A stretch of DNA of 36,318 bases, taken from NCBI GenBank assembly GCA_030669585.1, contig DAOVDI010000014.1:1-36318 (forward strand), given 5' to 3'. Of the stretch, positions 7,645 to 36,318 are shown piece by piece. Numbering within the stretch: position 1 is the first letter of the stretch; each line of letters opens with the position of its first letter. The stretch comes from Acidobacteriota bacterium. GTDB lineage: Bacteria > Acidobacteriota > Aminicenantia > Aminicenantales > Aminicenantaceae. Position numbers and translations under genes: made by a program. Below the pieces are notes generated by a model. It worked only from the letters and a program-made list of their open reading frames with translations, was not told where the DNA came from and ran no database searches.

Positions 7645-7645
7645 A

Positions 7646-9219: not shown

Positions 9220-9241
9220 ATTTATTGAAAGAGGAGATGAA

Positions 9242-17648: not shown

Positions 17649-17678
17649 TTTAAAGTGTTGCCATTGAGGAGACCTAGA

Positions 17679-18071
17679 ATGAAACAACCGCCGCTGGCTA
17701 ATGCGGAATTGGCGATTATGAAACTTCTTTGGAATGAAGACCTATTGACTGCCCGGAAGATGCGCGAGCAGCTCTATCCTGACGCGTCCAAAGCGCAGCA
17801 CGGGACCGTTCAAAGACTGCTGCAGCGACTGGAAGATAAGGGATATGTTGAGCGCGACCGCACTCTGCCTGTTCATTTCTTCTCCGCTAAGATCGATCGC
17901 CAGACCTATGCGCGTAATCAATTGGAATCACTCGCTGCTAAGTTGACTGGAGGTTCGCTTGCGTCGCTAATTACATATCTCGTGGAGGGCAAAAAGTTGT
18001 CTCCCAAAGAGCTCAGTCGGCTTCGGGTTATCCTCGATGACTATCGGGCGAAGGAGGATCAGCATGATTGA
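17679..18071 (+). CDS. BlaI/MecI/CopY-family transcriptional repressor
   Basis: PPLANAELAIMKLLWNEDLLTARKMREQLYPDASKAQHGTVQRLLQRLEDKGYVERDR; ATG at 17679 with GAGGAG upstream preferred over the longer ORF start at 17541. Confidence 0.9.
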   Translation: MKQPPLANAELAIMKLLWNEDLLTARKMREQLYPDASKAQHGTVQRLLQRLEDKGYVERDRTLPVHFFSAKIDRQTYARNQLESLAAKLTGGSLASLITYLVEGKKLSPKELSRLRVILDDYRAKEDQHD

Positions 18072-18242: not shown

Positions 18243-19154
18243 ATGCAAATTTCAATATCACAGCTTTCAAAACGCTATCCCGGCGGCAAACTGGCCCTTA
18301 AGGACATCGACATGGAAATCCCAAAGGGATTGTTCGGTCTGCTGGGTCCCAACGGCGCCGGAAAAACCACATTGATGCGTATCCTGGTCACACTGTTGAA
18401 GCCCAGCTCCGGCCGGGTGAGGGTCAATGATCTGGACATCCGCAAAAACCGCAAGGAGATCCGGCGGCAGATCGGCTATCTCCCCCAGGATTTTTCCGTG
18501 TTCGCCAAACTGACGGTCTGGGAGTTCATGGATAACAGCGCCTGTCTCAACGGCAAACTGTCCAAGAACAAGCGCCGGGATAGGATCGACCTGCTGCTGG
18601 AAAACGTGTGCCTCTTCTCAGCCACGGACCGCCTGACCGGGAAGCTCTCAGGCGGCATGAAGAGGAGGCTGGGCATTGCCCAAACCCTGATCGGAGACCC
18701 TCCGCTCCTGGTTGTGGACGAACCCACGGTAGGCCTGGACCCGGAGGAGCGGATCCGGTTCCGCAACCTTTTGTCCGACCTCTCCGCCCAGGACCGGATC
18801 ATCCTTCTTTCCACCCATATCGTGGGTGACATCTCCTCCACCTGCGAGACTATCGCGCTTATGGACATGGGACGCATCGTCTTTCACGGTCCACCGGCCG
18901 ACCTAGTGGACAGCGCCCGGGGAAAAGTCTGGACCGTATCCACCGGCTATGAAGACCTGGACGGCTGGAAGGAACGATTCCCAGTCATCTCCACGGTTCC
19001 CTCGGAAAGCGGATATGAGCTGCGGATCGTGGCGGAGAATCCGGATACGATGGAGGCCATACCCGCGGAACCCAATCTGGAAGATGCCTACATCCATTAC
19101 ATGCAGAAGGCGGCCTCGGGCCACTTGTCCGGAATATTTGAAAAAAAGGAATGA
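18243..19154 (+). CDS. ABC transporter ATP-binding protein
   Basis: LLGPNGAGKTTLMRIL Walker A, LSGGMKRRLGIAQTL signature, LLVVDEPTVGLDPEER Walker B, LLSTHIV. Confidence 0.96.
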   Translation: MQISISQLSKRYPGGKLALKDIDMEIPKGLFGLLGPNGAGKTTLMRILVTLLKPSSGRVRVNDLDIRKNRKEIRRQIGYLPQDFSVFAKLTVWEFMDNSACLNGKLSKNKRRDRIDLLLENVCLFSATDRLTGKLSGGMKRRLGIAQTLIGDPPLLVVDEPTVGLDPEERIRFRNLLSDLSAQDRIILLSTHIVGDISSTCETIALMDMGRIVFHGPPADLVDSARGKVWTVSTGYEDLDGWKERFPVISTVPSESGYELRIVAENPDTMEAIPAEPNLEDAYIHYMQKAASGHLSGIFEKKE

Positions 19155-19164
19155 GGTTAAAGCT

Positions 19165-22100
19165 ATGACATCTGTAATAATCTGTCTAAAAATCGCCGCA
19201 TATGAGGCCAAAATTCTCCTGAGGTCGTGGGGCTTCCGCATATTCGCCCTGCTGGGCCTCATTATTATGAGCCTTTTGACGGCCGGGATCGCAGCCCCCT
19301 CCTTTTCCTTCCCCTACTACTTCCGGTCCCTGTCGGGATCCATCCCGCTGTTCAGCTTTAAACTCTTCAATGTCTTTCAGGGCATTATCGTGGTTTTCAT
19401 GGCCACGGAATTCTTCAAACGGGACAGGAGAACAGATTCCACCCAGGTCATATTTTCCCGGTCCTTTTCCAACACCAGCTACATCCTAGGCAAATTCTTC
19501 GGAGTTATCGGGCTGTTTGTCCTTATGAATATCCTTGTCGGCGTGATCACGGCCCTGATCCATCTCTTCCTATCGGAGACGCCTTTAAACATCCAGGCTT
19601 ACCTTCTTTACTTCCTGACACTTACCCTTCCCACTATGGTATTTCTTATCGGCCTGTCCTTCGTTTTGGCCGTTGTCATCCGCAGCCAGGCGGTCGTCAT
19701 TCTGCTTGGACTGGCCATATCATCCCTCAGTCTGGCTGCCCTGGGAAACAAGGCCTACTTTATCCCCGACATATTCGGATTCCACACACCACTCATGTAT
19801 TCCGATTTTATCGGGCTTGGCAACAGCGCACAGCTTTTTCAGCTGCGGCTCCCCTTCCTCCTTCTGGGCCTGGGGTTCGTCTTTGGTACGGTGCTTCTGG
19901 CCAAACGGCTGCGGCAGTCGTCCTGGACGACGGCTCTGTCCGGGGGACTGTCAACCCTGCTTATCCTCTCGGCTTTGGGCCTGATTTTCAGCCATATCCA
20001 ATCCAACAGGGACATCGATTCCCTCCGCAGTGACCTTCTGGCGGAAAGCCAAAAATACGCCGAGGTCCCCGCACTGAGCCTAGAATCCTGTTCCCTTGAT
20101 GTGGAATTTTCCGGCAATGTCCTGTCGGCCTCTTCCGAGATTCTTTTAAAAAACAGTCAGGACAGGCCCGCCGAATCTATCCTCCTGACCCTGAACCCGG
20201 GACTCCAGATCAGCCGTATAGCCGCAGGCGATTCGACTCTTGATCATGTTAGAAAGGGCCACCTCCTCCTCATAAAGCCATCGGATCCCCTGGCCCCCGG
20301 TGCCGGCATCACTATCCGGATAGATTATGCAGGCACTCTGCTGGAGGCCTACTGCTACCCGGACATCGATGCTAAAAGCCTGCGCAAGCCCTCGAAACTG
20401 GGGATTTACAATGTCCCCAAAAAATACATCTTTCTATCAGAAAAATTCATCCATCTGACTCCGGAAAGCGGCTGGTATCCCCGGTCAGGGATCCCTCTCA
20501 GTCACCGCTTTCCCGGGGCGGTAGCCCATGATTTCTCTCAATACACGCTCAGTGTCCGACTGCCCGAGGGCTGCACAGCCGTCTCCCAGGGTCTTCCGGA
20601 AATCAAGCAGTCAAACAATGGTAAAACCTGCACTTTCCGTCCCACAACCCCTCTCCCTCAGATATCCCTGACAGTCGGCCCCTTCGAGGAAAGGATTCTT
20701 AAGGTCAAGGACGTTGAATACAGGCTCTATACTCTCCCGGGGCACGATTATTTTACCCAATATTTCGATGCCATCACCGAAGACCTACCCAAGACCATCA
20801 CCCAGCTGAAGGACGAGTTTGAGGTCACCCTCGGTTTGGACTACCCCTACGAGCAACTGGCGTTGGTGGAGGTCCCCATCCACTTTTTTAGCCATAAGCG
20901 CCTCTGGAGCGCGGCGGACGAAACCGTCCAGCCCCAGATGGTTTTTCTGCCGGAAATGGGAACACTGTGTCAAGGAGCGGACTTTGCGTCCATGGAGCGC
21001 ATGATGCAGAGAAGAGGGGGAAATATGAGGCGCCAGGGGGCGGAAACCAGTCCCGCCCAGATCCAAAACTTTTTTTTCACGCGCTTTATACGCAATAACC
21101 TCCTGGGTACCGGGATTGAACGGGGAGGCTTTAGGGGGAGACGAGATACAGCCCTTTCCAGTGTGACGGAATCAGACGTGGACACACAATACAACCTTTT
21201 GCCGAATTATTTCGTTTTCACATCCACGCTTGCCTCCGACCGCTGGCCTATACTCCACTCCGCCATGGAGTCCTGGCTACAGGACCGAATTTCCGCCGCC
21301 AGCTTCCGCTTCAACCGAAGCGGCGGTCTGACCGACCAGGAAAGAACCAACCGGCTTCTGGACGGACATTCCATGACTGAACTTCTGGAGGATGAAAGCC
21401 TGGGCGGTGACCAGCTCAACGATGTCATCCTGGCCAAGGGTAAATATCTGATGACCATCATCGAATCCCGCATCCAGGAGGACAACTTTGATAAAAAACT
21501 CCTGTCCTTTATCAAAGAGAAAAAGTTCAGCACCATTACGGAAGAAGAATTTCTCCTATTCCTTTTTGCCTATAGGGAATTCGATCTGGAACCTGTGATG
21601 GCTGCCTGGTATGAGGAAACACAGGTCCCGGCCTTCACCGTCGGCTCCATCGGTGTGTTCACTGTCCGGGACGGGGAACAGCAGCGCCACCATGTCCGCC
21701 TGCTTGTTACCAACATATCAGAAACTGAGGGTATCGTAAAAATCAGTATGATGTCGGGACAGAGTAGACGTGGGGTTCGTGGCGGCGGGGGAGGGTGGGA
21801 GATCGAAAGCACTATTCTTATCCCGCCCAAAACAACCAAGGAGGTCGGCATCCTCCTTGATACCCAGCCTCTGATGCTGCAGCTGGATACAACCATCTCG
21901 CGCAATATCCCCTCCACCATGAACCTGCCCCTGTGGGAGCGGAAATCGGAGGAAGCGGAGACCTTCTTTGAAGGGGACAGGTCCACTCCCTGTGAGGAGG
22001 GCCAATTCGATACTCCCGGAGAATATATAGTTGACAACGAGGACCCGGGATTCGTTGTGGCCGGCGGCGGAGACAATCGGCTTAGGTCGGCCATCCGCCG

Positions 22101-22593
22101 GCTATTCGACAGTTCAAGCACCGAGGCGGAGTATCTCGGTTACAATCCCAACAATCCTCCAGGACGCTGGACCCCGGTCATCCTGCAGAATTTCTACGGT
22201 ACTATCCTCCACACCGGCCATATGATCAAGGTCGGTGAGGGAAGCAACAGGGTTTCCTGGACGGTTAACCTCCCGGAAAGCGGCAGCTACGATATCTATT
22301 TTTACAACGAAACCATGGGCCAAGGCCGGGGCCGTGGAATGGGCAGTGGCCAGCGGGGCGGAAACAGGGGGGAACGGCAGCGGCCCACCCAGGAGGAAAA
22401 ACACTTCATCGTCCACCACGAGGACGGAACCGAAGAGATCACCTTCGAAATCCAGGAGTCGTCTCAGGGTTGGGTTCTTCTGGGAACCTTCCGCCTGGCG
22501 GCTGGAACGAACACGATCGAACAAACGGACAAGGGCAAGGGGGCCTTCCTCACGGCCGATGCTGTAAAGTGGGTTAGAATAAGCCAGAATTGA
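19165..22593 (+). CDS. ABC-2-type permease fused to an M1-like (HEXXH-less) domain and a C-terminal golvesin-like domain, copy 1
   Basis: Start ATG 19165 (MTSVIICLKIAAYEAKILLR); N-terminal multi-TM permease; VEVPIHFFSHKRLWSAADETVQPQMVFLPEMGTL as in ABC permease/M1 hybrids; C-terminal VSWTVNLPESGSYDIYFYNE...GWVLLGTFRLAAGTNTIEQTDKGKGAFLTADAVKWVR. Confidence 0.85.
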   Translation: MTSVIICLKIAAYEAKILLRSWGFRIFALLGLIIMSLLTAGIAAPSFSFPYYFRSLSGSIPLFSFKLFNVFQGIIVVFMATEFFKRDRRTDSTQVIFSRSFSNTSYILGKFFGVIGLFVLMNILVGVITALIHLFLSETPLNIQAYLLYFLTLTLPTMVFLIGLSFVLAVVIRSQAVVILLGLAISSLSLAALGNKAYFIPDIFGFHTPLMYSDFIGLGNSAQLFQLRLPFLLLGLGFVFGTVLLAKRLRQSSWTTALSGGLSTLLILSALGLIFSHIQSNRDIDSLRSDLLAESQKYAEVPALSLESCSLDVEFSGNVLSASSEILLKNSQDRPAESILLTLNPGLQISRIAAGDSTLDHVRKGHLLLIKPSDPLAPGAGITIRIDYAGTLLEAYCYPDIDAKSLRKPSKLGIYNVPKKYIFLSEKFIHLTPESGWYPRSGIPLSHRFPGAVAHDFSQYTLSVRLPEGCTAVSQGLPEIKQSNNGKTCTFRPTTPLPQISLTVGPFEERILKVKDVEYRLYTLPGHDYFTQYFDAITEDLPKTITQLKDEFEVTLGLDYPYEQLALVEVPIHFFSHKRLWSAADETVQPQMVFLPEMGTLCQGADFASMERMMQRRGGNMRRQGAETSPAQIQNFFFTRFIRNNLLGTGIERGGFRGRRDTALSSVTESDVDTQYNLLPNYFVFTSTLASDRWPILHSAMESWLQDRISAASFRFNRSGGLTDQERTNRLLDGHSMTELLEDESLGGDQLNDVILAKGKYLMTIIESRIQEDNFDKKLLSFIKEKKFSTITEEEFLLFLFAYREFDLEPVMAAWYEETQVPAFTVGSIGVFTVRDGEQQRHHVRLLVTNISETEGIVKISMMSGQSRRGVRGGGGGWEIESTILIPPKTTKEVGILLDTQPLMLQLDTTISRNIPSTMNLPLWERKSEEAETFFEGDRSTPCEEGQFDTPGEYIVDNEDPGFVVAGGGDNRLRSAIRRLFDSSSTEAEYLGYNPNNPPGRWTPVILQNFYGTILHTGHMIKVGEGSNRVSWTVNLPESGSYDIYFYNETMGQGRGRGMGSGQRGGNRGERQRPTQEEKHFIVHHEDGTEEITFEIQESSQGWVLLGTFRLAAGTNTIEQTDKGKGAFLTADAVKWVRISQN

Positions 22594-22690: not shown

Positions 22691-25600
22691 ATGACATCCG
22701 TAATGATCTGTCCGAAAATCGCCGCATATGAGGCGAAAATTCTACTAAGATCGTGGGGATTCCGCATATTCGCCCTTCTGGGACTCGTTATACTGGGCAT
22801 GCTGACGGCTGTGATCGCAGCCCCCTCCTTTTCCTTTCCCTATTACTTCCGCTCACTTTCGGGATCCATCCCGCTGTTCAGCTTCAAACTCTTCAATGTC
22901 TTTCAGGGCATTATCGTGGTTTTTATGGCGACGGAATTCTTCAAAAGGGACAGGCGGACGGATTCCACCCAGGTCATCTTTTCCCGGTCCTTCTCCAATA
23001 CCAGCTATATTCTCGGCAAGTTCCTCGGGATCCTGGGGCTCTTTATCTTGTTGAACATTTCCATCGGACTGATCACAGCACTGATCCATCTCTTTGTTTC
23101 AGCCACTCCTGTCAACCTCATGGCCTATCTTCTTTATTTTTTGACATTGAACCTTCCTACATTGGTATTTATGGTAGGTCTGTCCTTTGTGTTGGGTATG
23201 ACCATCCGCAGTCAGGCAGCCGTAGTACTCTTGGGACTGGCCCTGTCCTCTCTCAGCCTGGCTGTACTGGGGAACAAGGTTTATTTTATCCCGGACATAT
23301 TCGGATTCCACACCCCGCTGATGTATTCCGATTTTATCGGATTGGGCAACAGCGTCCAGCTGTTTTATCTGCGGTTTCCCTATGTCCTCCTCGGCCTGAG
23401 TTTTGTCTTCGGGACAGTGCTTCTGGCCAAGCGGCTGAGGCAGTCCCCCTGGACAACAGCACTATCCGGAACGCTGTCCGTGCTGCTCGTTCTATCCGCC
23501 TTTGGCCTGATATTCATCCATATCCAGGCCAACAGAGACATCGACACACTTCGCCGTGATTTGATAGCGGCCAGTGACAAATACAAAGACGCCACCCAGC
23601 TCAGCATGGAATCATGTTCCCTGGATCTTGAATTTGCCGGAAGCACCCTTTCAGCTGCTTCAGAGATCTGGCTGAAAAACAGCCAGGAAAAACCCGCGGA
23701 CTTTATCCTCTTGACCTTGAATCCGGGGCTTCAGGTCAACCGTATCACCACCAGCGGCCGGGTTGCGAATTTCTCCAGAGAGAACCATATACTGCTCATC
23801 CAGCTGCCAAAGCCCCTGGGCCCCGGTGAAAACATCGATATTCAAATAGACTATGCCGGCACTCCTATTGAGGCTTACTGCTACCCGGACATCGACATAG
23901 AAGCCCATTGCAAACCATCCAAGATGGGTCTTTACAGTGTGCCTAAAAAATATGTTTTCCTATCGGAGAACTTTGTCCATCTGACTCCGGAAAGCGGCTG
24001 GTACCCCCGGGCGGGAATCCCACTCAGTCACCGCTTTCCCGGCGCTGTGGAGAGTGATTATTGTCAATACACGCTCAGGATCAGCCTGCCGGAGGGCCGC
24101 ACTGCCATCTCCCAGGGTCTTCCTGAAATCAAGGAGTCGAGCAGCAGGAAAATCTACACTTTCCGCCCAAAGACCCTCATCCCTCAGATATCCCTGACGG
24201 TCGGCCCCTTTGAGGAAAGGACCCTCAAGGTTAAGAACGTAGACTATAAGCTCTTCACCCTTCCGGGGCACGATTATTTTACCCAATATTTAGATGCCAT
24301 TACCGAAGACCTGCCTAAAACCATCACCCGGCTGAAGAACGAATTTGAGGTTATTCTGGGATTGGACTACCCCTATGAGCAGCTGGCTTTTGTTGAGGTC
24401 CCTATTCATTTTTACAGCCACAAACGTCTCTGGAGCGCGGCGGATGAAACCGTCCAGCCTCAGATGGTATTTCTCCCGGAGATGGGCACATTGTGTGAAG
24501 GGGTGGACTTTGCGTCCATGGCGCGCTGGTTCCGGAGGATGGGGAGAAGCAAAGGTAGCAGGGGGAAGGAAATCACCCCCGCCCAGATTCAGACCTACTT
24601 TTTCAACAGCTTCGTTCGCACAAACCTCCTGGGCACCCAGCCCGCCAAAGAAGGTTTTCGCGACGGCGCCCTTTCCAGGGTGACGGAATCCGATGTGAAT
24701 GCGGAATATAACCTGATGCCGAATTATTTCACTTTCACCTCGACGCTGGCCTCCAACCGCTGGCCCATCCTCCACTCCGCCCTGGAATCCTGGCTTCAAG
24801 ATCGTATCTCCGCCGCCAGCTTCCGCTTCGACCGGAGCGGCGGATTGACCGACCAGGAAAGAACCAACCGGTTGCTGGACGGCCGCTCCATGTCTGACCT
24901 GATGGCCGAAAAAAATCTGAATTACAGCGAGCTATACAATGTCATTCTGGCCAAGGGAAAATATCTGATGACCGTCATCGAATCCCGCATCCAGGAGGAC
25001 AATTTCGACCTAAACCTGCTGGCTTTCCTCAAGAAAAAAAAGTTCAGCACCATTACGGAAGAAGATTTTCTTCAATTCCTTTTTGCCTATAAGGAATTCG
25101 ATCTGGAACCTGTGATGGCCGCCTGGTATGCAGAAAAAAAACTGCCGGCATTCACCATCGGCGCCGTCGGTATGTACAATGTCTTGGATGGAGAAAAAAA
25201 ACGCAGCCACATCCACATGTTCATTACCAACATCTCCGAAAACGAGGGCATTGTCAAAATCAGCTTGATGACGGGACAGAGTAAAAGTAAGGGGTACACG
25301 GGCGGAAGCCTGTGGGAGACTGAAAGTGCTATTCTTATCCCTCCGAAAACAACCAAGGACATCGGTGTTCTCCTGGATACCCGGCCCGTTTTGTTGACTG
25401 TGGATACAACCATCTCCCGAAACATTCCCGCCACCATGAACATGAATCTGTGGCAGCAGAGATTGGAGGAAGCGGAAACTTTCTTTGAGGGGGAGAGGTC
25501 CACTCCCTATGAGGAGGACCGACCGGAAACAGGAGAATATATCGTCGACAACGAGGACCCGGGATTCGTCGTGGCCGGTGCCGGTGGGAACAACTGGCTC

Positions 25601-26083
25601 CGGTCGACCATCCGCCGGCTATTTGACCCATCCGGCAAAGAGACGGAGTATCAGGAATACAATCCCTCTAATCCTCCCGGGCGGTGGAGTCCTGTTATTC
25701 TTCAGGATTTCTATGGAAAAATTATTCGCTCGGGGTATATGATCAAGGTCGGTGAGGGCGGCAATAAGATCTCCTGGACAGTTAACCTCCTGGAAAGCGG
25801 AAGCTACGACATCTATTTCCACAATGAAACCATGAACTATGAAAAGGGCGGAAACAAGGAAGGATGGAAAAAGCCCACCCAGGAGGAAAAAAATTTCATC
25901 GTCCAACACGAAGACCGAACCGAGGAGATCGCCTTCGACATCAAGGAATCATCTCGAGGCTGGATCCTTCTGGGAACCTTCCGCCTGGCGGCTGGAATGA
26001 ATACAATCGAACAAACAGATAAGGGCAAAGGAACCTTCCTTACCGCGGATGCTGTAAAGTGGATTAAAACGAGCCAGAATTGA
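22691..26083 (+). CDS. ABC-2-type permease / M1-like / golvesin-like fusion, copy 2 (tandem paralog)
   Basis: Closely similar to 19165-22593 along the whole length, e.g. SFSFPYYFRSLSGSIPLFSFKLFNVFQGIIVVFMATEFFKRDRRTDSTQVIFSRSFSNTSYILGKF identical in both. Confidence 0.88.
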   Translation: MTSVMICPKIAAYEAKILLRSWGFRIFALLGLVILGMLTAVIAAPSFSFPYYFRSLSGSIPLFSFKLFNVFQGIIVVFMATEFFKRDRRTDSTQVIFSRSFSNTSYILGKFLGILGLFILLNISIGLITALIHLFVSATPVNLMAYLLYFLTLNLPTLVFMVGLSFVLGMTIRSQAAVVLLGLALSSLSLAVLGNKVYFIPDIFGFHTPLMYSDFIGLGNSVQLFYLRFPYVLLGLSFVFGTVLLAKRLRQSPWTTALSGTLSVLLVLSAFGLIFIHIQANRDIDTLRRDLIAASDKYKDATQLSMESCSLDLEFAGSTLSAASEIWLKNSQEKPADFILLTLNPGLQVNRITTSGRVANFSRENHILLIQLPKPLGPGENIDIQIDYAGTPIEAYCYPDIDIEAHCKPSKMGLYSVPKKYVFLSENFVHLTPESGWYPRAGIPLSHRFPGAVESDYCQYTLRISLPEGRTAISQGLPEIKESSSRKIYTFRPKTLIPQISLTVGPFEERTLKVKNVDYKLFTLPGHDYFTQYLDAITEDLPKTITRLKNEFEVILGLDYPYEQLAFVEVPIHFYSHKRLWSAADETVQPQMVFLPEMGTLCEGVDFASMARWFRRMGRSKGSRGKEITPAQIQTYFFNSFVRTNLLGTQPAKEGFRDGALSRVTESDVNAEYNLMPNYFTFTSTLASNRWPILHSALESWLQDRISAASFRFDRSGGLTDQERTNRLLDGRSMSDLMAEKNLNYSELYNVILAKGKYLMTVIESRIQEDNFDLNLLAFLKKKKFSTITEEDFLQFLFAYKEFDLEPVMAAWYAEKKLPAFTIGAVGMYNVLDGEKKRSHIHMFITNISENEGIVKISLMTGQSKSKGYTGGSLWETESAILIPPKTTKDIGVLLDTRPVLLTVDTTISRNIPATMNMNLWQQRLEEAETFFEGERSTPYEEDRPETGEYIVDNEDPGFVVAGAGGNNWLRSTIRRLFDPSGKETEYQEYNPSNPPGRWSPVILQDFYGKIIRSGYMIKVGEGGNKISWTVNLLESGSYDIYFHNETMNYEKGGNKEGWKKPTQEEKNFIVQHEDRTEEIAFDIKESSRGWILLGTFRLAAGMNTIEQTDKGKGTFLTADAVKWIKTSQN

Positions 26084-26105
26084 AAACCTAGAAATGGAGT
26101 TGTCC

Positions 26106-27644
26106 ATGAAAAAATCAATCCGAAAATATTCACACAGGCATCATGTTGCCAATCGCCTGACAATTATTGGGCCGGTGGTTGTATTCAGTTTACTCCTGAT
26201 CTCCACGGCAGGCTCTCTGTCTGCAGGCGATGAGCTGACTCTGGACAGGGCTCTCAACATCGCCTTCCAGAACAGCCCGGCCATGCGTCAGGCCTCCCTT
26301 CAGCTGGAGTTCAACGAGCGCAACCTGATGGCCGAGAAGGCCGGGCTAAAGTCCCAGTTCAGTTTGAGCGTGACGCCCTACCTCACTTCCAGCAACAGGG
26401 TGTTCAGTGACCTCACCTCCAGCTACAACACCCAGACCCAGACAAAAACGGAAACCGCCTTCACCATTCGTCAGCCCATCAAATGGACGGACGCCACTTT
26501 AATCGTCACTGACAAGTTCAACTGGCAGGAGGCGTCCAGCTCTTTTGCTGGTGGGGAGAAGATGTCCAACTTCTCCAACAGTCTAACCTTCAGCCTCAGC
26601 CAACCCCTCTTCACCTACAACCGGAAAAAGATGCAGATCAAGGAGCTGGAGCTTGCCCTTGAGAATGCACAGCTAGCCTATGCCATCCAGAAACTTCAGA
26701 TCGAAAGACAGGTTACCCAGCAGTTTCTCAACCTCTATTACTCCAGGATGAGCATCCAGATCTCCCAGGAGGAATACAAAAACGCCATGGAAAGTCTCGA
26801 CATCATCCAGAGCAAGGTGGATGCCGGCATAACCGCACCTGAAGAGCTCTATCAGGCAGACATCACCAAGGACAACAGCCTGGCTTCGCTGGAAAACAAG
26901 CGCATGCAGCATGAAAACAGTCTGGATACATTCAAAACGCTTCTGGGACTTGAGTTGGAAGCCCTGATCGATGTGTCCGCCGACATTCAGAAAACAATTG
27001 TGGAAGTGGATCTGAATATGGCCATTGCCCACGGGCTGAAAAATCGTATGGAGCTGCGGCAGAAGGACATCGAGATCCAGAATGCCATGCATGATCTCAT
27101 CAAGGCGGCAGCCGAGAATGAGTTCAAGGCCTCCCTTAATCTCTCCTTCGGGCTGACCGGAACCAACCCACAGTTCGCGGGCATCTACGACTCGCCCAAC
27201 ACCGACCGTCTGATTGCCCTCACCCTGAACATCCCCCTGTTTGACTGGGGACAGAAGAAACATCACCTGGCCGCCACCAGGGCCCAGATCGAGACGGTCA
27301 AGCTCTCGGCTGAAGAAGAGATAAAAAGCATAAAAACTGAGATCCGCGAAGCCTACCGGACTTTGCTGAATCAGAAACGTCAGATAGAAATTGCGGAGAA
27401 AAGCATAAAAAACGCGGATCTCACCTACGCCATCAACCTGGAGCGCTACCGCAATGGTGATCTCTCGTCCAAGGATCTGCAGTTCTATCAGCTACAACTG
27501 TCCCAACAAAAGCTCAGCCTGGTCCAGGCTCTGATCAGCAACAAACTGGCCCTGCTTGACCTGAAGATCAGGACGCTCTGGGATTTTGAGGCCCACCGGT
27601 CCATCTTGAACGAACTCGAAGATATATCGGAACAGGAGGGATAA
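26106..27644 (+). CDS. TolC-family outer membrane efflux protein
   Basis: LTLDRALNIAFQNSPAMRQASLQLEFNERNLMAEKAGLKSQ plus paired coiled-coil repeats and NIPLFDWGQKKHHLAATRAQIE. Confidence 0.92.
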   Translation: MKKSIRKYSHRHHVANRLTIIGPVVVFSLLLISTAGSLSAGDELTLDRALNIAFQNSPAMRQASLQLEFNERNLMAEKAGLKSQFSLSVTPYLTSSNRVFSDLTSSYNTQTQTKTETAFTIRQPIKWTDATLIVTDKFNWQEASSSFAGGEKMSNFSNSLTFSLSQPLFTYNRKKMQIKELELALENAQLAYAIQKLQIERQVTQQFLNLYYSRMSIQISQEEYKNAMESLDIIQSKVDAGITAPEELYQADITKDNSLASLENKRMQHENSLDTFKTLLGLELEALIDVSADIQKTIVEVDLNMAIAHGLKNRMELRQKDIEIQNAMHDLIKAAAENEFKASLNLSFGLTGTNPQFAGIYDSPNTDRLIALTLNIPLFDWGQKKHHLAATRAQIETVKLSAEEEIKSIKTEIREAYRTLLNQKRQIEIAEKSIKNADLTYAINLERYRNGDLSSKDLQFYQLQLSQQKLSLVQALISNKLALLDLKIRTLWDFEAHRSILNELEDISEQEG

Positions 27645-27647: not shown

Positions 27648-28727
27648 ATGAGAAAAACCACAACGGGACTCAATGTTACGCCACTGTGTGTATTGTTATT
27701 TATATTCATATTGGTTTTGACCGGTTGCCAACAGGAACGGATGACGGAGCAAACCGACACCACCATCCCAGTCCGGGTGATGGAAGTGAAAAAATCCTCC
27801 ATCCAGGAATTAGTGACTGCGACAGGAACGGTCTATGCCGTCAAGGAAACCATCCTCAAAACGGAACAGGCCGGGCAGTACATGCTTCGGCGAAATCCCA
27901 GGACAGGAAAACCCTTTGTCATGGGGGATTCCGTGGCCGCCAACACCCTGCTCTTCTCCCTGGACAATCCCGAATATGTCAATCAGATCGCCATGGATTC
28001 GAAAAAGTTGAGCCTCGAGTCTGCGGAGAGGGAATTCACCAAGCAGCAGGGCGTCTACGAAAAGGGCGGCATCACTCTGAGCGAGGTAAAAGATGCGGAA
28101 AAAGCCCTGATCGACGCCCGCTACAGCTATGACAATGCTAAGATTTCCCTGGGCAAGCTGGAGATCCGCACCCCCTTCAAGGGGATTATCGTGAACCTCC
28201 CACACTATACCTCCAGTCAGTGGGTAGAGGCCAACACCGAAGTGGCCACTTTGATGGATTACTCCTGCCTTTATGCCGAGCTGACCCTTCCCGGCAAGGA
28301 GATGGACCGCATCCAGCAGAACCAGAATGTGGCCGTCAGCAACTACAGCCAGAAAAAGAAGAAGATTGAGGGAAAGGTCACTCAGATCTCACCGGTGCTG
28401 GATCCCACCAGCCGGATGTTCAAGATCAAAATCGAAGCCTCCAACCAGGACCTCTTTCTCAAACCCGGAATGTTTGTGCGCGCCGACATAATTGTACAAG
28501 AGAAGGAGGATGTGATCGTCATCCCGAAGGACATCATCCTGGACAGGCGCGGACGCAAAACCGTTTATGTCGTCCAGCGGGGAATCGCCCTGGAACGGAG
28601 GCTTGAGCTGGGTATTGATAACAGCGACAGCGTGGAAGTGACTAAGGGGCTCGATCCGGATGACAGCCTCGTCATCGAAGGCTTCGAAACCCTGAGAAAC
28701 CGCTCCCGCGTCAAGGTCATCGAGTAA
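27648..28727 (+). CDS. RND efflux periplasmic adaptor (membrane fusion) lipoprotein
   Basis: Lipobox VLTGCQQ, lipoyl/hairpin region, IRTPFKGIIVNLPHYTSSQWVEANTEVATLMDYS, FLKPGMFVRADIIVQEKEDVIVIPKDIIL. Confidence 0.92.
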   Translation: MRKTTTGLNVTPLCVLLFIFILVLTGCQQERMTEQTDTTIPVRVMEVKKSSIQELVTATGTVYAVKETILKTEQAGQYMLRRNPRTGKPFVMGDSVAANTLLFSLDNPEYVNQIAMDSKKLSLESAEREFTKQQGVYEKGGITLSEVKDAEKALIDARYSYDNAKISLGKLEIRTPFKGIIVNLPHYTSSQWVEANTEVATLMDYSCLYAELTLPGKEMDRIQQNQNVAVSNYSQKKKKIEGKVTQISPVLDPTSRMFKIKIEASNQDLFLKPGMFVRADIIVQEKEDVIVIPKDIILDRRGRKTVYVVQRGIALERRLELGIDNSDSVEVTKGLDPDDSLVIEGFETLRNRSRVKVIE

Positions 28728-28728: not shown

Positions 28729-31700
28729 ATGAAAAAGCTGGCACAATTTTCCGTCAAACACCCCACGACCATCTTGATGATCATCCTGGCTATCTGTCTC
28801 CTCGGTTACATAGCCTTCCAGAGGCTGGGGATGGATCTTCTCCCCCGGCTGAACAGCCCGCGGCTTTATATCTCCATGGTAGCTGAGAATCGTCCTCCCG
28901 CAGAGATGGAGGAGCAGTTTGTTTCCGGTCTGGAAGCCACGGCCGCCCGCGGCCACAAGGTGACCGGCGTCTCATCCATTTCCAGGGTGGGAAGGGCGCT
29001 GATCACCGTCGAATATGACTGGAACACGGATATGGACGAGGCCTACCTTGAACTCCAGAAGGCTGTCACCGATTTCAACCAGGGTCAGGATCTTGATGAG
29101 ATCACCGTCAGCCAGCTTGATCCCAATGCCCAGCCCATTGTCACCGCCGTTTTCTGGCACGAGGACCTGGAGGATCTGGACAGGCTGCGGCAGACCGCGG
29201 AAAACAACATCCGCAACGACCTGGTCCGGCTTCCCGGCGTGGCCGCTGTGGAACTTGTCGGAGAGAGGAAAAGAGAGATCGAGATCCGGACGGATTCCTT
29301 TACCCTGGAAGCCTACGGGCTGACATCGGACCAGGTGGCTTCCGCCATCCAGCAAAGCAACCAGAGCATCTCTGGCGGGTCCATCGTCGAGATGGGCCTG
29401 AAATATACCATACGCGGCGTTGGAGAGTTGGAGTCGCTGGAAGACCTCAGGAACCTGATCATCGCCTATAAAACCGATGAAACGGGAGAATCGTCCGACC
29501 GCACCCCTATCACCTTGAAAGATATCTCCGAGGTGGGCTACGTTCTCAGCGAGCCCGAGAATATCGTCCACTACAACGGCCGCCGGTGTCTTGCCCTCGA
29601 GATCTTCAAGGAAGCCCGGTTCAACACCACAGAGGCCTCCGAATACATCCGCAGCCAGCTGGAAAGCCTTCAGAGATCCCTTCCCGGATATGAGCTGCAC
29701 ATTATCCAGGACCAGGCAGGTTTCATCAAATCCGCAGTCAGGGAAGTGGAGCAGACCGGATTGATAGGTATTTTTCTGGCCGTTCTGATCCTGTTCATTT
29801 TTCTTCGTCGAATAGGGGTTACCGCCGTCATCAGCATCGCCATCCCAATCTCCATCATCGCCACTTTCAATCTGATGTACTTCAACAAGCTGACCCTTAA
29901 CATCATGACCCTTGGAGGCCTGGCTCTGGGAGCCGGTATGCTGGTGGACAATGCCATCGTCGTGGTGGAAAACATCTTCCGCCATCTGGAGGAGGGATTG
30001 GGTCTCAAGGAGGCGGCCGTGCGCGGCGCAGGTGAGGTGGGGGGAGCCATCACCAGCTCCACCCTGACCACCATCATTGTTTTTCTTCCCATCGTCTACC
30101 TGCAGGGCATCGCCGGCGAGCTGTTCAAGGAGCAGGCCTGGACAGTGGCCTTCGCCCTCCTGTCCTCCCTTTTTGTGGCTCTGTCCGTCATCCCCATGCT
30201 TAGTTCCAGGATATTGAAAGCTCCCAAGGCCAAAGAGGCTAAATCCTCCCTGCAGTTTCCCTTTTACGCCCAATTCCTGGGCGGCGTACTGAAAAAGCGC
30301 TGGTTTGTGGTTGCCCTGGCTTTTCTCTTGATCCTGTCGGCGGCCTTTCTGGCGGTCAATATGGGCAGCGAATTTTTGCCCCAGACGGACCGCAATGAAC
30401 TGGAGATTTCCCTTCTTCTGCCGGAAGGATCAAGCTTGGAGCGGACGGAATCCGCGGTCCACAGCCTGGAATTGTTGCTGGAAGAAAACCATGGGGAATC
30501 CATCCAGTCCATCTTCTCCCGCATCGGCCCGGTGGGAACCGCTCTGACGGAATCGGAAGCGCTGGCCGGAGAAAACAGCGCCATGCTTTTGATCAGTCTC
30601 AAACCCGATTCTATAGACCTGGACTCTCTGCAGGCGTGGTTCAAAAACCAGCTGACCGACATTCCCGGCCTCAACGCCCAGATCATGCGGGCCAAGACCG
30701 CCCTCCAGATTACCCTTGGCACGAAAGAGGCTCCTCTGGTCGTTGAAATACAGGGTAAGGAACTGGATACCCTGCAGTCCCTGTCCAATCAGGTGGAGGC
30801 CATCCTGATGCAGCAGCAGGGATTAAACGCCGTCGAAACCAGCTTTCAGGAGGGCCGGCCCGAGGTGGAAGTGGTTATCGACAGGACCGCCGCCGCAAGC
30901 TTCGGCCTCACACCCTATAGCATCGGAACGCAGTTAAGCGCCCTGCTGGCCGGACAGGAGCTGGGTGAATATGAGGACGAGGGCGAATACATCAACATCA
31001 TGCTGCGCTCGCCCGAACCTTCCCTAAAGGAGCTGGAAGGTCTTCTGTTGGACTCGACCGGAGGACAGAAGCTGAGGCTGGATGAGGTGGCCTCAATTCG
31101 AAAAACAACCTCTCCCCGTGAAATCCTGAGAAACAACCAGGTTCGGACAGCCGAAGTGTCGGCCCAGCTCAGCGGAGAGGAGGCCTTCGACAAAACCGTC
31201 GCCCGTGTGGAAAAGGCGCTGGCAGAAGTCATCCTGCCCCAGGATTATTCCTTTGCCGTTACCGGTGAGGAAAAACTGCGGAGGAAATCCTTCAGCCACC
31301 TGTGGTTCGCCTTCCTCCTGGCCGTCATCCTGGTCTACATGGTCATGGCCTCGCAGTTCGAGTCCCTGCGTCATCCCTTTGTTATCCTTCTGACTATTCC
31401 TCTGGCTATGGTGGGAGCAGTGGGGCTGCTCATGATTCTAAAGCTCCCTCTGAACATCATGTCCTTCATCGGAATGATCATGCTGGCCGGGATCGCCGTC
31501 AACGACTCCATCATCCTGGTGGACCTGATCAACCAGATCCGGCGGAGCGGCAGGGACATGGAAGAAGCCATCATTACGGCGGGGCAGCTGCGCATCCGGC
31601 CCATTTTTATGACTTCCGCCACCACCATCCTGGCCCTCTTCCCGCTGACCCTGGGCATCGGGGAAGGGGCGGCCCTTCGGGCCCCTCTGGCCGTGGCCGT

Positions 31701-31803
31701 TATAGGAGGGTTGGTGACCTCTACCCTCCTGACCCTGGTGGTTATTCCCGCGGTCTATCGTATTTTGGGCGGCCGCCTGAAGCAGAGAGAAGAGAGGATT
31801 TAG
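28729..31803 (+). CDS. RND multidrug efflux transporter permease (AcrB/HAE1-like)
   Basis: 1024 aa; GAGMLVDNAIVVVENIF TM4 motif; GIAVNDSIILVDLINQ TM10 region; duplicated 6-TM halves with large loops. Confidence 0.95.
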   Translation: MKKLAQFSVKHPTTILMIILAICLLGYIAFQRLGMDLLPRLNSPRLYISMVAENRPPAEMEEQFVSGLEATAARGHKVTGVSSISRVGRALITVEYDWNTDMDEAYLELQKAVTDFNQGQDLDEITVSQLDPNAQPIVTAVFWHEDLEDLDRLRQTAENNIRNDLVRLPGVAAVELVGERKREIEIRTDSFTLEAYGLTSDQVASAIQQSNQSISGGSIVEMGLKYTIRGVGELESLEDLRNLIIAYKTDETGESSDRTPITLKDISEVGYVLSEPENIVHYNGRRCLALEIFKEARFNTTEASEYIRSQLESLQRSLPGYELHIIQDQAGFIKSAVREVEQTGLIGIFLAVLILFIFLRRIGVTAVISIAIPISIIATFNLMYFNKLTLNIMTLGGLALGAGMLVDNAIVVVENIFRHLEEGLGLKEAAVRGAGEVGGAITSSTLTTIIVFLPIVYLQGIAGELFKEQAWTVAFALLSSLFVALSVIPMLSSRILKAPKAKEAKSSLQFPFYAQFLGGVLKKRWFVVALAFLLILSAAFLAVNMGSEFLPQTDRNELEISLLLPEGSSLERTESAVHSLELLLEENHGESIQSIFSRIGPVGTALTESEALAGENSAMLLISLKPDSIDLDSLQAWFKNQLTDIPGLNAQIMRAKTALQITLGTKEAPLVVEIQGKELDTLQSLSNQVEAILMQQQGLNAVETSFQEGRPEVEVVIDRTAAASFGLTPYSIGTQLSALLAGQELGEYEDEGEYINIMLRSPEPSLKELEGLLLDSTGGQKLRLDEVASIRKTTSPREILRNNQVRTAEVSAQLSGEEAFDKTVARVEKALAEVILPQDYSFAVTGEEKLRRKSFSHLWFAFLLAVILVYMVMASQFESLRHPFVILLTIPLAMVGAVGLLMILKLPLNIMSFIGMIMLAGIAVNDSIILVDLINQIRRSGRDMEEAIITAGQLRIRPIFMTSATTILALFPLTLGIGEGAALRAPLAVAVIGGLVTSTLLTLVVIPAVYRILGGRLKQREERI

Positions 31804-31806: not shown

Positions 31807-34800
31807 ATGATTCGACGGATTATCCGACGGCCGGTTACTGTATTTATGCTCATCACGGGCCTCTGCCTGCTGGGGGCTGTCTCCTTCCTGCAGCTTTCCT
31901 TCGAGCTTTTCCCGAACACCGAGCTTCCTCAACTGATCATCTATATATCCGGGCCGCAGAACGCCGATCCCGGCTATGTGGAACACTATGCAGTGATCCC
32001 GCTGGAGGGCGCCATCGCCGGGCTGGAAAATATCGAAAAAATCGAATCCTATGTGAGCAGCAGGCAGGCCACTATATTTGTTTACTATAACCAGTCCAGC
32101 CGCCAGAAATACGATTATCTGAAGCTCCAGGACAGGGTTGCAGCCGCTGCTGCCCAGCTGGAGGAGTCCTTCCAGGCGACTGTTGTCCAGACCAATCCTG
32201 AGCAGCTCTCCAATCAGTACCTCTCCTTTCAGGCCAGAGGGGAAGGCAGCCTGGATCAGATCCGCAGTGTTATCGATGAAAAGGTCATTCCCCAGCTAGA
32301 AACCATAGATGGGATGGCCAACGTCAACGTGTACGGCGGCAGCAAACGGTCCATCGAGATCGTGCTGGACAGCAAACAACTGGTCGAGTTTGGTTTGACG
32401 GTCAACCAGGTCGCCTCCCGTATCAACCAGCAGGCCGGAAAAAGGCAGTTCCTTGGAGTCGCCCGGGAGGGACGCCAGAGGTATTTCGTCAATCTGGTTA
32501 GCGAGTACACAGAAGTTCCCGATCTGCGTGATGTCGTGGTTAAAAACACGGGCCCCATAACACTGGGCCAGATCGCTGAAATCAGGGATGGTTGGGCGGA
32601 AGAGGAATCCATCTCGCGGATCAATGGTATGGAAGCCGTCACGGTCTCGCTGGTTCGCAGCTGGAACACAAACCTCCTTTCCCTGGCTGCCAAAACCCGG
32701 AAAACCATCTCAGACATCAACCGTCAGGTCAGCGCCGATGGGATCGAGCTTGTCATCCAGGTGGATGAAGCCCGGGTGATCGAAGACAACATCCAGTCCA
32801 TCCTTATGTTGGGCCTTTTAGGAAGCCTTCTGGCTATAGCCGTCCTCTGGGTATTTATACGTCGGCTCAAATTTGTTTTTATCATCGCTCTCAACATCCC
32901 CATCTCTGTCCTTATATCCATGAATCTTTTTTACGCGCTGGGGATCACTATCAACACACTTACGCTTGTGGGAATCGCCATCGCTGTGGGGATGCTGTTG
33001 GATAGCAGCATTGTTGTGTTGGAAAACATCAACCGCCACATTAATAGAAATTCGGATGCAGGTAATGCCGTAGTGAATGGGACCAATGAGGTACTGCGGG
33101 CCATAATCGCCGCCACACTGACCACAATCTGCATTTTCATCCCCTTTCTATTCTCCACCGAGCCTCTTGTGAAAACACTGGGCTGGCAGATCGGTGTGTC
33201 CATCATTGCCACCCTTCTCGTTTCTCTGGCCGTAGCCTTCCTTCTGATTCCCACCATCGCCTTTCGGATCCTTTCCGGGAAAAAAAAGTTCACACCTTCA
33301 CCTGCGCTCAGCCAAAAGCAGCGGCCCATGCAGATCTATACCGTACTTCTCAAGACAGGCCTGCGTTTTCCGGCGGGAACGCTGGCCGTATGTGTAGTGG
33401 CCTTTTTTATCAGCCTGGCCATCTGCCTGGGGCTCAGCATCAACGTTCCCCAAGAGGTCCCGCTTGACACATTCAATCTATATGCCATCCTCCCCTCAGG
33501 GACGACCCTGGAGACGGCGGATGAACAGGCCCGGAGGATGGATGAACGGCTGAAGGATATTCAGGAAATCAAGGAAAGGACAGACTCCATCCAGGAGGAC
33601 AATATTGTCCTGACATTTCAGCTGAAGGACAATTATGAAAAGATTGCCGGACGTCCCCTCGGGGAAATCAAGGACTCCATCCAAGAGATGCTGGAAGATG
33701 CCTTCCCCCGTATCGATTTTTCCTTTGAAGAACCCACCCAGAGTGCCGGCTTCCAGGGCAGTGGCGGCAGCGGCAAGGATTTCCAGCGGCTTCTCGGTAT
33801 GGGGGCTAGCCAGGAGAAGGTTATCCTCAGCGGACAAGACCTGGAGATCTTGGAGGCTATCGCTGACGATATCCAATACAATATAGAAAACCTCGATACC
33901 ATCAGATCGGTTAATACTAGCGTTTCCTACCAGCAGCCCAGCATCGATCTCCTCCTGGACAAGGCGGCACTCAAACATTTCGATGTGGAGCTCCAGTCAG
34001 TTATGAACGAGCTGAACACCTTCCAGAAGGAGATTTCCGTCACCGTCAAGTACATGGACGGTCCGGAAGAAGTGGACATCATCTTGAAGACCGAAGAGGA
34101 AGAGGAAAAAACCTCGGATGACCTCCGCAGGCTCCAGATCCCGGCCGCCACGGAAGGTCTGGTCCCTATCACCCAGATTTCCCAACTCTTGTATACGGCA
34201 GGCTACAGCCGGATCAGCCGGACAAACCAGGAAAAGCAGGTAACGGTGGCCTATCGGTTCGAGTCGGATATCGAGGATTCCAGCACCCTTCTGGATCAGG
34301 CCCGGGCAGAAATCGAAGCCATGGTCGCCGGTATCTACCCGCCTCCCGGCGTGGCCATCGAGGTGGCCCATGATAAAAGTGACGTTTCGGAATTTTACTT
34401 TCTGATCGGCATCGGAATACTTCTCATCTTCATGGTTCTTGCCTCCACTTTCGAATCATTGATTACCCCTTTTGTGATGATGTTCACCCTGCCCTTGGCC
34501 GCGGTGGGCGCCTTCCTGGCTCTCATCCTGACGGGGAACTCCATCTACAACGCCAACGCACTGATCGGGTTCCTGATCCTGCTGGGTGTTGTCGTCAATA
34601 ACGGCATCATACTGATCGACTACTCGCGCATCCTCCAGCGGAAAAAATTCCGCCTGTCCCGTGCCCTGATAACAGCTGGCCAGACACGGGTTCGGCCCAT
34701 TCTGATTACGGCAACGACCACCATCCTGGCCATGCTGCCCATCGCAATGGGCCGGGCGGAGTATATCTCCCAGATTGGCGCCCCTTTTGCCATCACTGTG

Positions 34801-35889
34801 ATAGGGGGGCTGGCCTTCGCCACCCTCTTTACCCTGGTCATCATCCCCACCGCTGCCTTCGGCCTGGACAACACACTACGCTGGCTGAACAGACTGCCGC
34901 TCAAAACCACGCTTCTGATGTTGGCCCTGTTTTTCCTGGGTCTGGTCCTGATAGTCAACACAATCCATTCGGTGCTCTGGCAGTTTGCCTATATACTTGG
35001 GCTTCTGGCCGCCGTGCCCGCCGGCACCTGGTTTGTCCGGACCAGCCTCCGCCGCAGCCGCACCCGGCTCTTCGCCGATGATGTGCCCATCACCATCACC
35101 ATCCGCAATGTTTCCAAAGTATATGATGACTTTATCAAATTCGCCAAAGAATGGAGAAAAGGGCGCAAAGACCGGGGGACATCATCAGGAAGCCTTCCTT
35201 TTAAGGAGCGGCTGGCCCGATGGTTTTATCTCCTGCCCCTCTATGCCTTTCTGGTCTTCTTCCTGTTCTTTTACATCAGGGGAGGATTGTGGCGGCTGAT
35301 TCTGATCGTGGTTTTCTACATGGCCAGTCTGAATATGTACCGCACCTTCAAACCTGCACAGGGACCGGCCCTCCGGTTGCGGGACAGGATATTCAATCTG
35401 GGAGAGAAGGTGGTTTGCTGGGGGCTTCCCATCCTCGTGCTCCTCTGGCTGAGGGGTTTGTGGCAGGATACATTTTCCGCTGTTTTCTTTGGCATGATCT
35501 GGTATCTGGCCATTCTTTTCCAGGCCGTGGCTAAACGTTTGGAGCAAAAGGGCGTCAATGTCGACCGCCTGACCGGCCGGTTCGGCCGGCTGCGGCGTGC
35601 CTTCTACAGATTTGTTCAAAGCGTCCCCCTAATCAGCCGCAAAAAGAAGCCTTTCGAGGCGCTGGACCAAATCTCCCTCTCCATTGGAAGCGGGATGTTT
35701 GGCCTAGTGGGACCCAACGGGGCGGGCAAAACCACCCTGATGCGCATTATCTGCGGCATCCTGGGCGCCAGCCGCGGTAAAGTGTCCTTCAATCACCTAA
35801 ACCTGGAGGAGCACAGGGAGGAACTTCAGGCCCTGATCGGATATCTACCCCAGGAATTCGGCACCTATGAAAACATGACCGCCGTCTAG
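31807..35889 (+). CDS. RND efflux transporter fused to extra TM segments and the N-terminal part of an ABC ATPase; ends at an in-frame TAG
   Basis: RND core to ~residue 1030 (GMLLDSSIVVLENINRHI, GVVVNNGIILIDYSRI); then ITITIRNVSKVYDDF, hydrophobic segments, and FEALDQISLSIGSGMFGLVGPNGAGKTTLMRII; stops at TAG 35887-35889. Confidence 0.9.
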   Translation: MIRRIIRRPVTVFMLITGLCLLGAVSFLQLSFELFPNTELPQLIIYISGPQNADPGYVEHYAVIPLEGAIAGLENIEKIESYVSSRQATIFVYYNQSSRQKYDYLKLQDRVAAAAAQLEESFQATVVQTNPEQLSNQYLSFQARGEGSLDQIRSVIDEKVIPQLETIDGMANVNVYGGSKRSIEIVLDSKQLVEFGLTVNQVASRINQQAGKRQFLGVAREGRQRYFVNLVSEYTEVPDLRDVVVKNTGPITLGQIAEIRDGWAEEESISRINGMEAVTVSLVRSWNTNLLSLAAKTRKTISDINRQVSADGIELVIQVDEARVIEDNIQSILMLGLLGSLLAIAVLWVFIRRLKFVFIIALNIPISVLISMNLFYALGITINTLTLVGIAIAVGMLLDSSIVVLENINRHINRNSDAGNAVVNGTNEVLRAIIAATLTTICIFIPFLFSTEPLVKTLGWQIGVSIIATLLVSLAVAFLLIPTIAFRILSGKKKFTPSPALSQKQRPMQIYTVLLKTGLRFPAGTLAVCVVAFFISLAICLGLSINVPQEVPLDTFNLYAILPSGTTLETADEQARRMDERLKDIQEIKERTDSIQEDNIVLTFQLKDNYEKIAGRPLGEIKDSIQEMLEDAFPRIDFSFEEPTQSAGFQGSGGSGKDFQRLLGMGASQEKVILSGQDLEILEAIADDIQYNIENLDTIRSVNTSVSYQQPSIDLLLDKAALKHFDVELQSVMNELNTFQKEISVTVKYMDGPEEVDIILKTEEEEEKTSDDLRRLQIPAATEGLVPITQISQLLYTAGYSRISRTNQEKQVTVAYRFESDIEDSSTLLDQARAEIEAMVAGIYPPPGVAIEVAHDKSDVSEFYFLIGIGILLIFMVLASTFESLITPFVMMFTLPLAAVGAFLALILTGNSIYNANALIGFLILLGVVVNNGIILIDYSRILQRKKFRLSRALITAGQTRVRPILITATTTILAMLPIAMGRAEYISQIGAPFAITVIGGLAFATLFTLVIIPTAAFGLDNTLRWLNRLPLKTTLLMLALFFLGLVLIVNTIHSVLWQFAYILGLLAAVPAGTWFVRTSLRRSRTRLFADDVPITITIRNVSKVYDDFIKFAKEWRKGRKDRGTSSGSLPFKERLARWFYLLPLYAFLVFFLFFYIRGGLWRLILIVVFYMASLNMYRTFKPAQGPALRLRDRIFNLGEKVVCWGLPILVLLWLRGLWQDTFSAVFFGMIWYLAILFQAVAKRLEQKGVNVDRLTGRFGRLRRAFYRFVQSVPLISRKKKPFEALDQISLSIGSGMFGLVGPNGAGKTTLMRIICGILGASRGKVSFNHLNLEEHREELQALIGYLPQEFGTYENMTAV

Positions 35890-36318
35890 TTTCTGGATTA
35901 CCAGGCCATGCTCAAAGGGATATTGAACAACGGGGATAGGGAGCGAATCGTCAGCACCGCGCTGGAATCCGTTCATCTCACGGATAACCGGGACCACAAG
36001 ATTGGGACATTTTCGGGCGGAATGAAGCAGCGCATAGGGATCGCCCAGACCTTACTCAAGCTGCCCAGGGTCCTGGTTGTGGACGAGCCCACCGCAGGAC
36101 TGGACCCGAGGGAGAGGATCAAATTCCGCAATCTATTGAGTGAGCTGGCCAAGGACCGCATCGTGATCTTTTCCACCCACATCATCGAGGACATCTCCAG
36201 CTCCTGCAACAAGCTGGCCGTTCTGCTGGAGGGCAGAGTCAAGTTCGTCGGCACCCCCAAGGAACTGGTCGAACGGACCCGGGGAAATATCTGGCAGGCC
36301 AATATCCCGGAAGGTGAT
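35890..36318 (+). pseudogene. Remainder of the ABC ATPase domain, same frame after the TAG, continuing beyond the window
   Basis: FLDYQAMLKGIL...FSGGMKQRIGIAQTLLKLPRVLVVDEPTAGLDPRERIKFRNLL...FSTHIIEDISSSC is open from the TAG to the window edge. Confidence 0.85.

Follow-up and report, generated by a model that had tools for sequence, protein, structure and literature searches.

An RND permease fused to an ABC-2-class ATPase domain with a transmembrane insert recurs in Acidobacteriota and many FCB-group lineages

We find that one open reading frame (31807–35889, plus strand) in a contig of an Acidobacteriota bacterium (contig DAOVDI010000014.1 of assembly GCA_030669585.1; hereafter the window, the whole stretch of 36,318 nucleotides that was analysed) encodes, in this order, an RND permease, two transmembrane (TM) helices, the first strand and A-loop of an ABC nucleotide-binding domain (NBD), an insert of ~176 codons with four TM helices, and strand 2, Walker A and the rest of the NBD (Table 1). 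The same RND–ABC design recurs across Acidobacteriota and many lineages of the FCB group and is real, not an assembly accident. Our preferred reading, to which we give a probability of roughly two in three, is that the NBD with its membrane insert is functional and couples an ABC-2 permease encoded downstream to an RND tripartite pump.

Table 1. Features of the fusion gene and its operon (positions refer to the window unless a locus is named).
Feature	Position	Strand	Basis or remark
Stand-alone ABC-2-class ATPase (NBD1), strand 1/A-loop/strand 2 uninterrupted	18243..19154	+	Clade shared with fused NBDs
ABC-2-type permease, tandem copy a	19084..22593	+	72% identical to copy b
ABC-2-type permease with M1-aminopeptidase-like and golvesin C-terminal domains, tandem copy b	22691..26083	+	Golvesin_C above cut-off; Peptidase_M1 below
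TolC-family outer-membrane channel (OEP)	26094..27644	+	Pfam OEP, E 8e-45
Periplasmic adaptor (MFP)	27648..28727	+	HlyD_D23; TIGR01730 RND_mfp above curated cut-off
RND1, unfused partner RND permease	28729..31803	+	NCBIfam RND_permease_2, E 5.9e-197, below curated cut-off
RND2, RND (HAE1-type) permease part of the fusion, residues 1–1015	31807..34851	+	Pfam ACR_tran
Two extra TM helices linking RND domain and NBD	34909..35040	+	Hydropathy scan; AlphaFold2 helices H176–196, H200–224
NBD strand 1 up to the A-loop Tyr, ITITIRNVSKVY	35089..35124	+	Matrix rank, AlphaFold2 strand, conserved K-x-Y
Insert (176 codons) from the A-loop to strand 2; its parts are an amphipathic segment rich in K/R, four TM helices in two hairpins, and a helix rich in K/R	35125..35652	+	Hydropathy, charge, AlphaFold2
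NBD remainder: strand 2, Walker A, Q-loop, FSGGMKQR signature, Walker B, H-loop; cut off by the end of the contig	35653..36318	+	Pfam ABC_tran
In-frame TAG	35887..35889	+	CAG in second copy (contig C172); Gln/Arg in relatives
Predicted ABC-2 permease downstream of the fusion	L002 844–1587; L055 11599–12342		

The RND part of the fusion matches the ACR_tran profile (PF00873) over its full length (profile positions 1–1015 of 1021, E 1.4e-147). In the closest homolog (locus L055), the NCBIfam family RND_permease_2 matches residues 4–1015, far under its curated cut-off (441 of 1250 bits). The residues equivalent to the AcrB proton relay are partly replaced in the fusions (loci L055–L081 and the window): D407, R971 and T978 are kept, while D408 has become Asn, Ser, Gly or Cys and K940 has become Asn. 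The window's RND1 likewise keeps D407, R971 and T978 and has replaced D408 and K940 (the latter by Asn), and many ordinary RND pumps also lack the D408 and K940 equivalents; their absence is thus no sign of lost proton coupling. The preliminary description of this DNA was confined to the C-terminal third of the fusion: its split NBD is real, but the RND permease that makes up the first 1015 residues was missed, as were the conserved seven-gene operon and the downstream ABC-2 permease that surround it.

We asked whether the segment in front of the insert belongs to the NBD, as the preliminary description had proposed from ITITIRNVSKVYDDF at 35089–35133 and its continuation FEALDQISLSIGSGMFGLVGPNGAGKTT at 35653. 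Both segments are found exactly there and in the same frame; the A-loop Tyr lies at 35122–35124 and is separated from FEALD by 176 codons. We derived a strand-1/A-loop position matrix from nine ordinary NBDs and scored it at every position (~500–1950) of whole fusion proteins. The ITITIRNVSKVY-type segment ranks first in 32 of 38 fusions and never under third: it is first in 21 of the 26 named homologs (second or third in the others), in 10 of 11 distant ones (second in the other) and in the window. The matrix scores themselves are modest, some of them 5–9 against best chance scores of 7.8–10 in control proteins, and the argument lies in the consistent place of the segment, not in the height of its score.

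Scores no higher than the control maxima are also what one might see if the fused NBD had lost its first strand and A-loop and ITITIRNVSKVY were a chance beta segment in a linker. We regard this as very unlikely, because the segment scores best in most fusions and several other observations point the same way. Only seven columns are invariant among 31 aligned sequences that reach down to 22% identity (i.e. the A-loop K and Y, one Trp, A-L in strand 2 and G-M before Walker A), and the K-x-Y of the segment is among them; the A-loop aromatic residue is Tyr in 31 of 31, but lies ~175 residues upstream of strand 2. Deep relatives show LEVRHLEKVYG and YSIELHTLTKIY, which are textbook strand-1/A-loop sequences. 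A 647-residue AlphaFold2 model of moderate quality (22 sequences, mean pLDDT 66, pTM 0.46), places a strand at 35095–35124 (model residues 241–250, pLDDT about 82), and the stretch from the insert to strand 2 has no strand in the model that could substitute for strand 1. Foldseek recovers the NBD from this model, but its local alignment is unlikely to span the insert and weighs neither for nor against strand pairing. Finally, the stand-alone sister NBD1 reads MQISISQLSKRYPGGKLALKDIDMEI, in which the same strand motif joins strand 2 directly, only a few residues apart; this hairpin is uninterrupted in NBD1, and the insert of the fused NBD sits in that same loop.

The TM insert separates strands 1 and 2 in every member read, and strand 1 precedes it at the same place in every homolog read and lies elsewhere in none. 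Homologs with the insert, to which the preliminary description had looked for comparison, occur in several phyla. With the matrix ranks and the AlphaFold2 strand, the constant place of the strand supports its assignment to the NBD. All three possible refutations listed in the preliminary description were put to the test, and none overturned the reading. We consider it very probable that the NBD is genuinely split and completed across the insert, with strand 1 presumably pairing with the NBD sheet.

The hydropathy scan resolves four TM stretches in the insert, at about 35221–35277, 35281–35337, 35389–35445 and 35473–35529. K/R counts in the five loops are 10, 1, 5, 1 and 13: positive residues crowd at both outer ends and in the middle loop and are scarce in the two turns. 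By the positive-inside rule, this distribution indicates two hairpins with both NBD parts in the cytoplasm. The preliminary description had anticipated much of this: it counted about four hydrophobic stretches in ~170 codons, argued that an even number would keep both NBD parts cytoplasmic, and placed two further hydrophobic stretches before the NBD (~34900–35040), where two TM helices are now located. AlphaFold2 predicts helices at model residues 254–271, 276–300, 305–324, 334–363, 366–392 and 404–416, four of which are long. Hydropathy gives four TM helices in the window and about half of the relatives scanned, whereas one or two weaker helices fall under the threshold in the remaining ones. 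The insert has no convincing relative in Pfam or the PDB. A derivation from the downstream ABC-2 permease was considered and rejected (hhalign probability 0.2%). Compared with L055, dN/dS is 0.105 for the RND part and 0.135 for strand 1 and the insert; purifying selection extends over the insert.

In the NBD remainder, GPNGAGKTT, YLPQ, FSGGMKQ, LVVDEPTAGLDP and STHI are near-invariant among relatives and represent Walker A, the Q-loop, the signature, Walker B and the H-loop, respectively. The closest solved relatives of the fused NBD are ABCA4/ABCA1, TM0544 and NosF, and by sequence it is assigned to the ABC-2 class, the ATPase class that accompanies type V permeases.

In the window copy, the signature and the later NBD motifs fall past an in-frame TAG, for which the preliminary description proposed Glu. 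This choice is not upheld: most relatives have Gln and some Arg, and a second copy reads CAG. The second copy, which lies at the start of the short contig C172 of the same genome (L002, G000:C172, 1–889), is 90% identical to the last 706 bases of the window and completes the NBD, after which a membrane protein of 247 residues follows. The two contig ends share these 706 bases, an overlap that strain variants or duplication of a block would be expected to produce. With Gln or Arg in relatives and CAG in the second copy, recoding of the TAG finds no support. The dN/dS of the NBD compared with L055 is low on both sides of the TAG (0.048 before and 0.078 after). Because of this and of the residues found in the relatives and the second copy, we read the TAG either as a lesion that is recent or confined to one strain or as an error; the gene is otherwise under constraint.

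The fragmented assembly (191 contigs), the TAG inside the NBD and the 90%-identical copy on C172 could together be taken to mean that the fusion is a decaying or mis-assembled gene, i.e. a chance join in a metagenome bin that is now a pseudogene. Such an origin is highly improbable: the same fusion is open in independent assemblies from several phyla, including single-contig genomes, dN/dS is 0.05–0.135 on either side of the TAG, and a lesion, strain variation or error may account for the TAG, but for nothing more. We rejected a chimera or assembly artefact because so many homologs from separate assemblies are open; a recurrence in dozens of such assemblies far exceeds chance.

Scanning the species genomes of GTDB, we recovered the same fusion at 27 loci, a lower bound since the two short peptide patterns used favour close relatives, in Aminicenantes, Gemmatimonadetes (Gemmatimonadota), Calditrichota, KSB1, Zixiibacteriota (Zixibacteria), Krumholzibacteriota, Bacteroidales/Bacteroidetes and others, among them one labelled 'Deltaproteobacterium'; one of these loci (L079) is broken by frame changes. 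Metagenome bins dominate the genomes sampled for the fusion, and the window's own family includes Candidatus Aminicenantes MAGs. The fusion is present in eight of 142 genomes of the window's class, while 34 of the 396 genomes sampled from its phylum match a broader profile, most of the ORFs being near 1600 residues long and some lying on single-contig genomes. Six deep members of the phylum were read (L107, L108, L109, L110, L111 and L112). They form a deeply diverged subfamily from other Acidobacteriota, some with single-contig genomes, and show the RND part, two TM helices, a LEVRHLEKVYG-type strand, the TM insert, strand 2 and Walker A. In the fusion tree, sequences cluster by phylum where tested, as would fit an ancient gene, though its scattered occurrence points to losses or transfers. 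The L055 record is titled Deltaproteobacteria, but its fusion is 90% identical to that of the window and nested among Aminicenantes sequences, and it is probably a mislabelled bin.

We also compared the operon surroundings. Wherever flanks exist, the main family has a block in the order ABC-2/M1-like permease, TolC-family channel, MFP, RND1, fusion (RND2–ABC) and ABC-2 permease. A stand-alone ABC ATPase lies upstream of the block where that region was read, and the genes downstream are unrelated and differ between loci. RND1 adjoins the fusion in syntenic loci, and in the deepest members RND1 and the fusion persist and are usually joined by the permease; of the six that were read, two (L109 and L111) have a next gene that lacks detectable similarity to the ABC-2 permease. 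The MFP and TolC-family genes are those expected of a tripartite efflux system. The fused NBDs and the stand-alone NBDs of the operon form one clade relative to other NBDs (99/96), a grouping that suggests a duplication within the operon behind the pair of fused NBD and NBD1. The ABC-2 nature of copy b of the tandem permeases is deduced from its sequence and its operon. Both copies have golvesin C-terminal domains. We searched the M1-like regions of both copies for a HEXXH motif and found none; these regions are probably catalytically dead.

Some further genes lie close to the operon or elsewhere in the window. A gene for a BlaI/MecI-type (Penicillinase_R) repressor (17541–18071) directly precedes the first ABC gene of the operon and, in a single case (L082, 1029–2006, genome G052), a gene identified by eye as a serine beta-lactamase-like hydrolase lies directly upstream of NBD1. 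The two genes hint at a link with the cell wall or beta-lactams. At 6523–9817, we read an oxidative-stress-like cluster of genes for a Fur-family regulator, a flavin reductase/rubredoxin, an FprA-type flavoprotein, desulfoferrodoxin and rubrerythrin.

The permease encoded downstream of the fusion matches Pfam ABC2_membrane weakly (best E 0.003), and a PDB sequence search with it gave no matches. Its AlphaFold2 model (pLDDT 86.6) has the elbow helix, the coupling helix and the six-TM fold. The best 46 PDB fold matches are all of the ABC-2/ABCG/ABCA/NosY/TarG/CcmB type, although statistically weak (best E 0.004). Because these 46 matches are unanimously ABC-2-type, we take the downstream gene to encode a predicted type V ABC permease.

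Relying on these findings, we propose that (i) RND2, most likely together with the neighbouring RND1, would form the inner-membrane part of a TolC/MFP tripartite exporter, as MdtB and MdtC form a paired inner-membrane RND pump of such an exporter; (ii) the C-terminus of the fusion would be a complete ABC-2-class NBD with two TM hairpins inserted between the A-loop Tyr and strand 2; (iii) strand 1 would rejoin the rest of the NBD on the cytoplasmic side, since the insert, with its even helix count, turns back on itself, and so complete one ATP site; (iv) the insert would hold the NBD at the membrane next to the RND domain and perhaps fix it to RND helices; (v) ATP hydrolysis by the fused NBD would drive the type V ABC-2 permease encoded next downstream; and (vi) the ABC part would move a substrate out of the inner membrane and hand it to the RND porter and then to the TolC duct. 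That the fused NBD works with the downstream permease seems probable to us; that RND and ABC parts act in one assembly is somewhat less so, if still favoured. By analogy with its ABCA/ABC-2 kin, the system probably exports a lipid-like or amphipathic substrate. Of this picture, the reading frame, the fusion, the place of the insert, conservation, selection, the operon and the predicted fold of the downstream permease come directly from the analysis; we infer the pairing of strand 1 with the NBD sheet, the ATPase activity, the NBD–permease pairing, the RND1/RND2 heteromer and the substrate hand-over.

Several points weigh against this mechanism: the window copy has a stop inside the NBD, the fold matches of the downstream permease are unanimous but weak, an RND trimer and an ABC dimer are mismatched in symmetry, and the fused NBD could pair instead with the stand-alone NBD1 or the other ABC-2 permease. 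As a speculation, a trimer rich in RND2 may reconcile the symmetries by offering two NBDs that dimerise under two copies of the ABC-2 permease. Pairing of the fused NBD with NBD1 and its ABC-2/M1-like permease, which would make one ABC exporter with two ATPases, accords with the finding that the two NBDs are sister sequences in one operon. We consider such a heterodimer improbable, since each NBD is adjoined by a permease gene of its own and the downstream permease has a predicted type V fold, which normally depends on an NBD.

Alternatively, the fused NBD may energise the RND part itself, so that ATP hydrolysis replaces or supplements the proton gradient in driving or gating its cycle, with the four-TM insert as the mechanical coupling element. 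The covalent link, the strict conservation of the insert across deep lineages and the relay changes at D408 and K940 beside retained D407, R971 and T978 would fit this mechanism; however, the next gene of the operon encodes an ABC-2 permease as the obvious partner of the NBD, and RND1 also lacks the D408 and K940 equivalents. We hold it rather unlikely that ATP drives the RND part directly, and less likely than that it drives the ABC-2 permease, the role that we prefer for the fused NBD. A wider conjecture is an envelope pump with two energy sources: its ABC ATPase, which four TM helices interrupt and anchor, would drive or gate by mechanical action an RND permease on the same polypeptide, and ATP and the proton gradient would be joined in a single export cycle. 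This is a tentative idea that we hold doubtful.

Each module of the system comes from a known superfamily and the system is not categorically new; what appears to be new is the combination. HAE1-type RND pumps (e.g. AcrB and MdtB/MdtC) resemble the fusion in their full-length ACR_tran domain, paired RND genes, and MFP and TolC-family genes in the same operon. By contrast, the fusion adds two C-terminal TM helices and a split NBD (about 550 residues), has an NCBIfam score near one third of the curated cut-off and does not keep the D408/K940 equivalents. MacB/LolCDE-type (type VII) systems, including MacAB-TolC, likewise join an ABC ATPase with an MFP and a TolC-type channel, and a review on tripartite pumps describes the NBD of MacB as fused to its own permease domain (PMC8277102); the NBD of the present fusion is ABCA/NosF-like, of the ABC-2 class, and sits on an RND permease, and the separate permease is predicted to be type V. 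Type V (ABC-2) exporters (e.g. PmtCD, NosFY, TarGH and ABCA/ABCG) share the NBD class (ABCA4, ABCA1, NosF and TM0544) and the predicted permease fold. We know of no such exporter with TM helices inside the NBD or with an RND pump on the NBD chain. The best NCBIfam ABC family matches are ATPases of the GldA/DrrA type; the GldA match begins after the insert in the fusion (profile positions 15–221) but from position 1 in the stand-alone NBD1. The system is thus neither an ordinary RND nor an ordinary ABC exporter, because strands 1 and 2 are not contiguous, the D408/K940 relay is changed and the score lies under the curated RND cut-off. In the open-access literature, we found neither an RND–ABC fusion polypeptide nor an NBD interrupted by TM helices; searching the first 300,000 characters of the same review (PMC8277102) for such terms likewise returned no mention of an RND–ABC fusion. 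The RND–ABC hybrid is apparently undescribed.

Databases may hide this family under the generic label 'RND permease', but it can be found by the rule RND + K-x-Y strand + four TM + ALxxVxL...GPNGAGKTT. The split NBD shows that a membrane-embedded insertion is tolerated, and in this family maintained, in the loop joining the A-loop to strand 2, which adds to what is known of the ways in which an ABC motor can be tied to the membrane. RND and ABC exporters count as distinct superfamilies that differ in their source of energy. With a conserved chain that contains both, accompanied by an ABC-2 permease, an adaptor and an outer-membrane channel, their direct cooperation becomes testable. If the doubly energised pump proved real, it would represent a separate class of transporters in Acidobacteriota and many FCB-group lineages.
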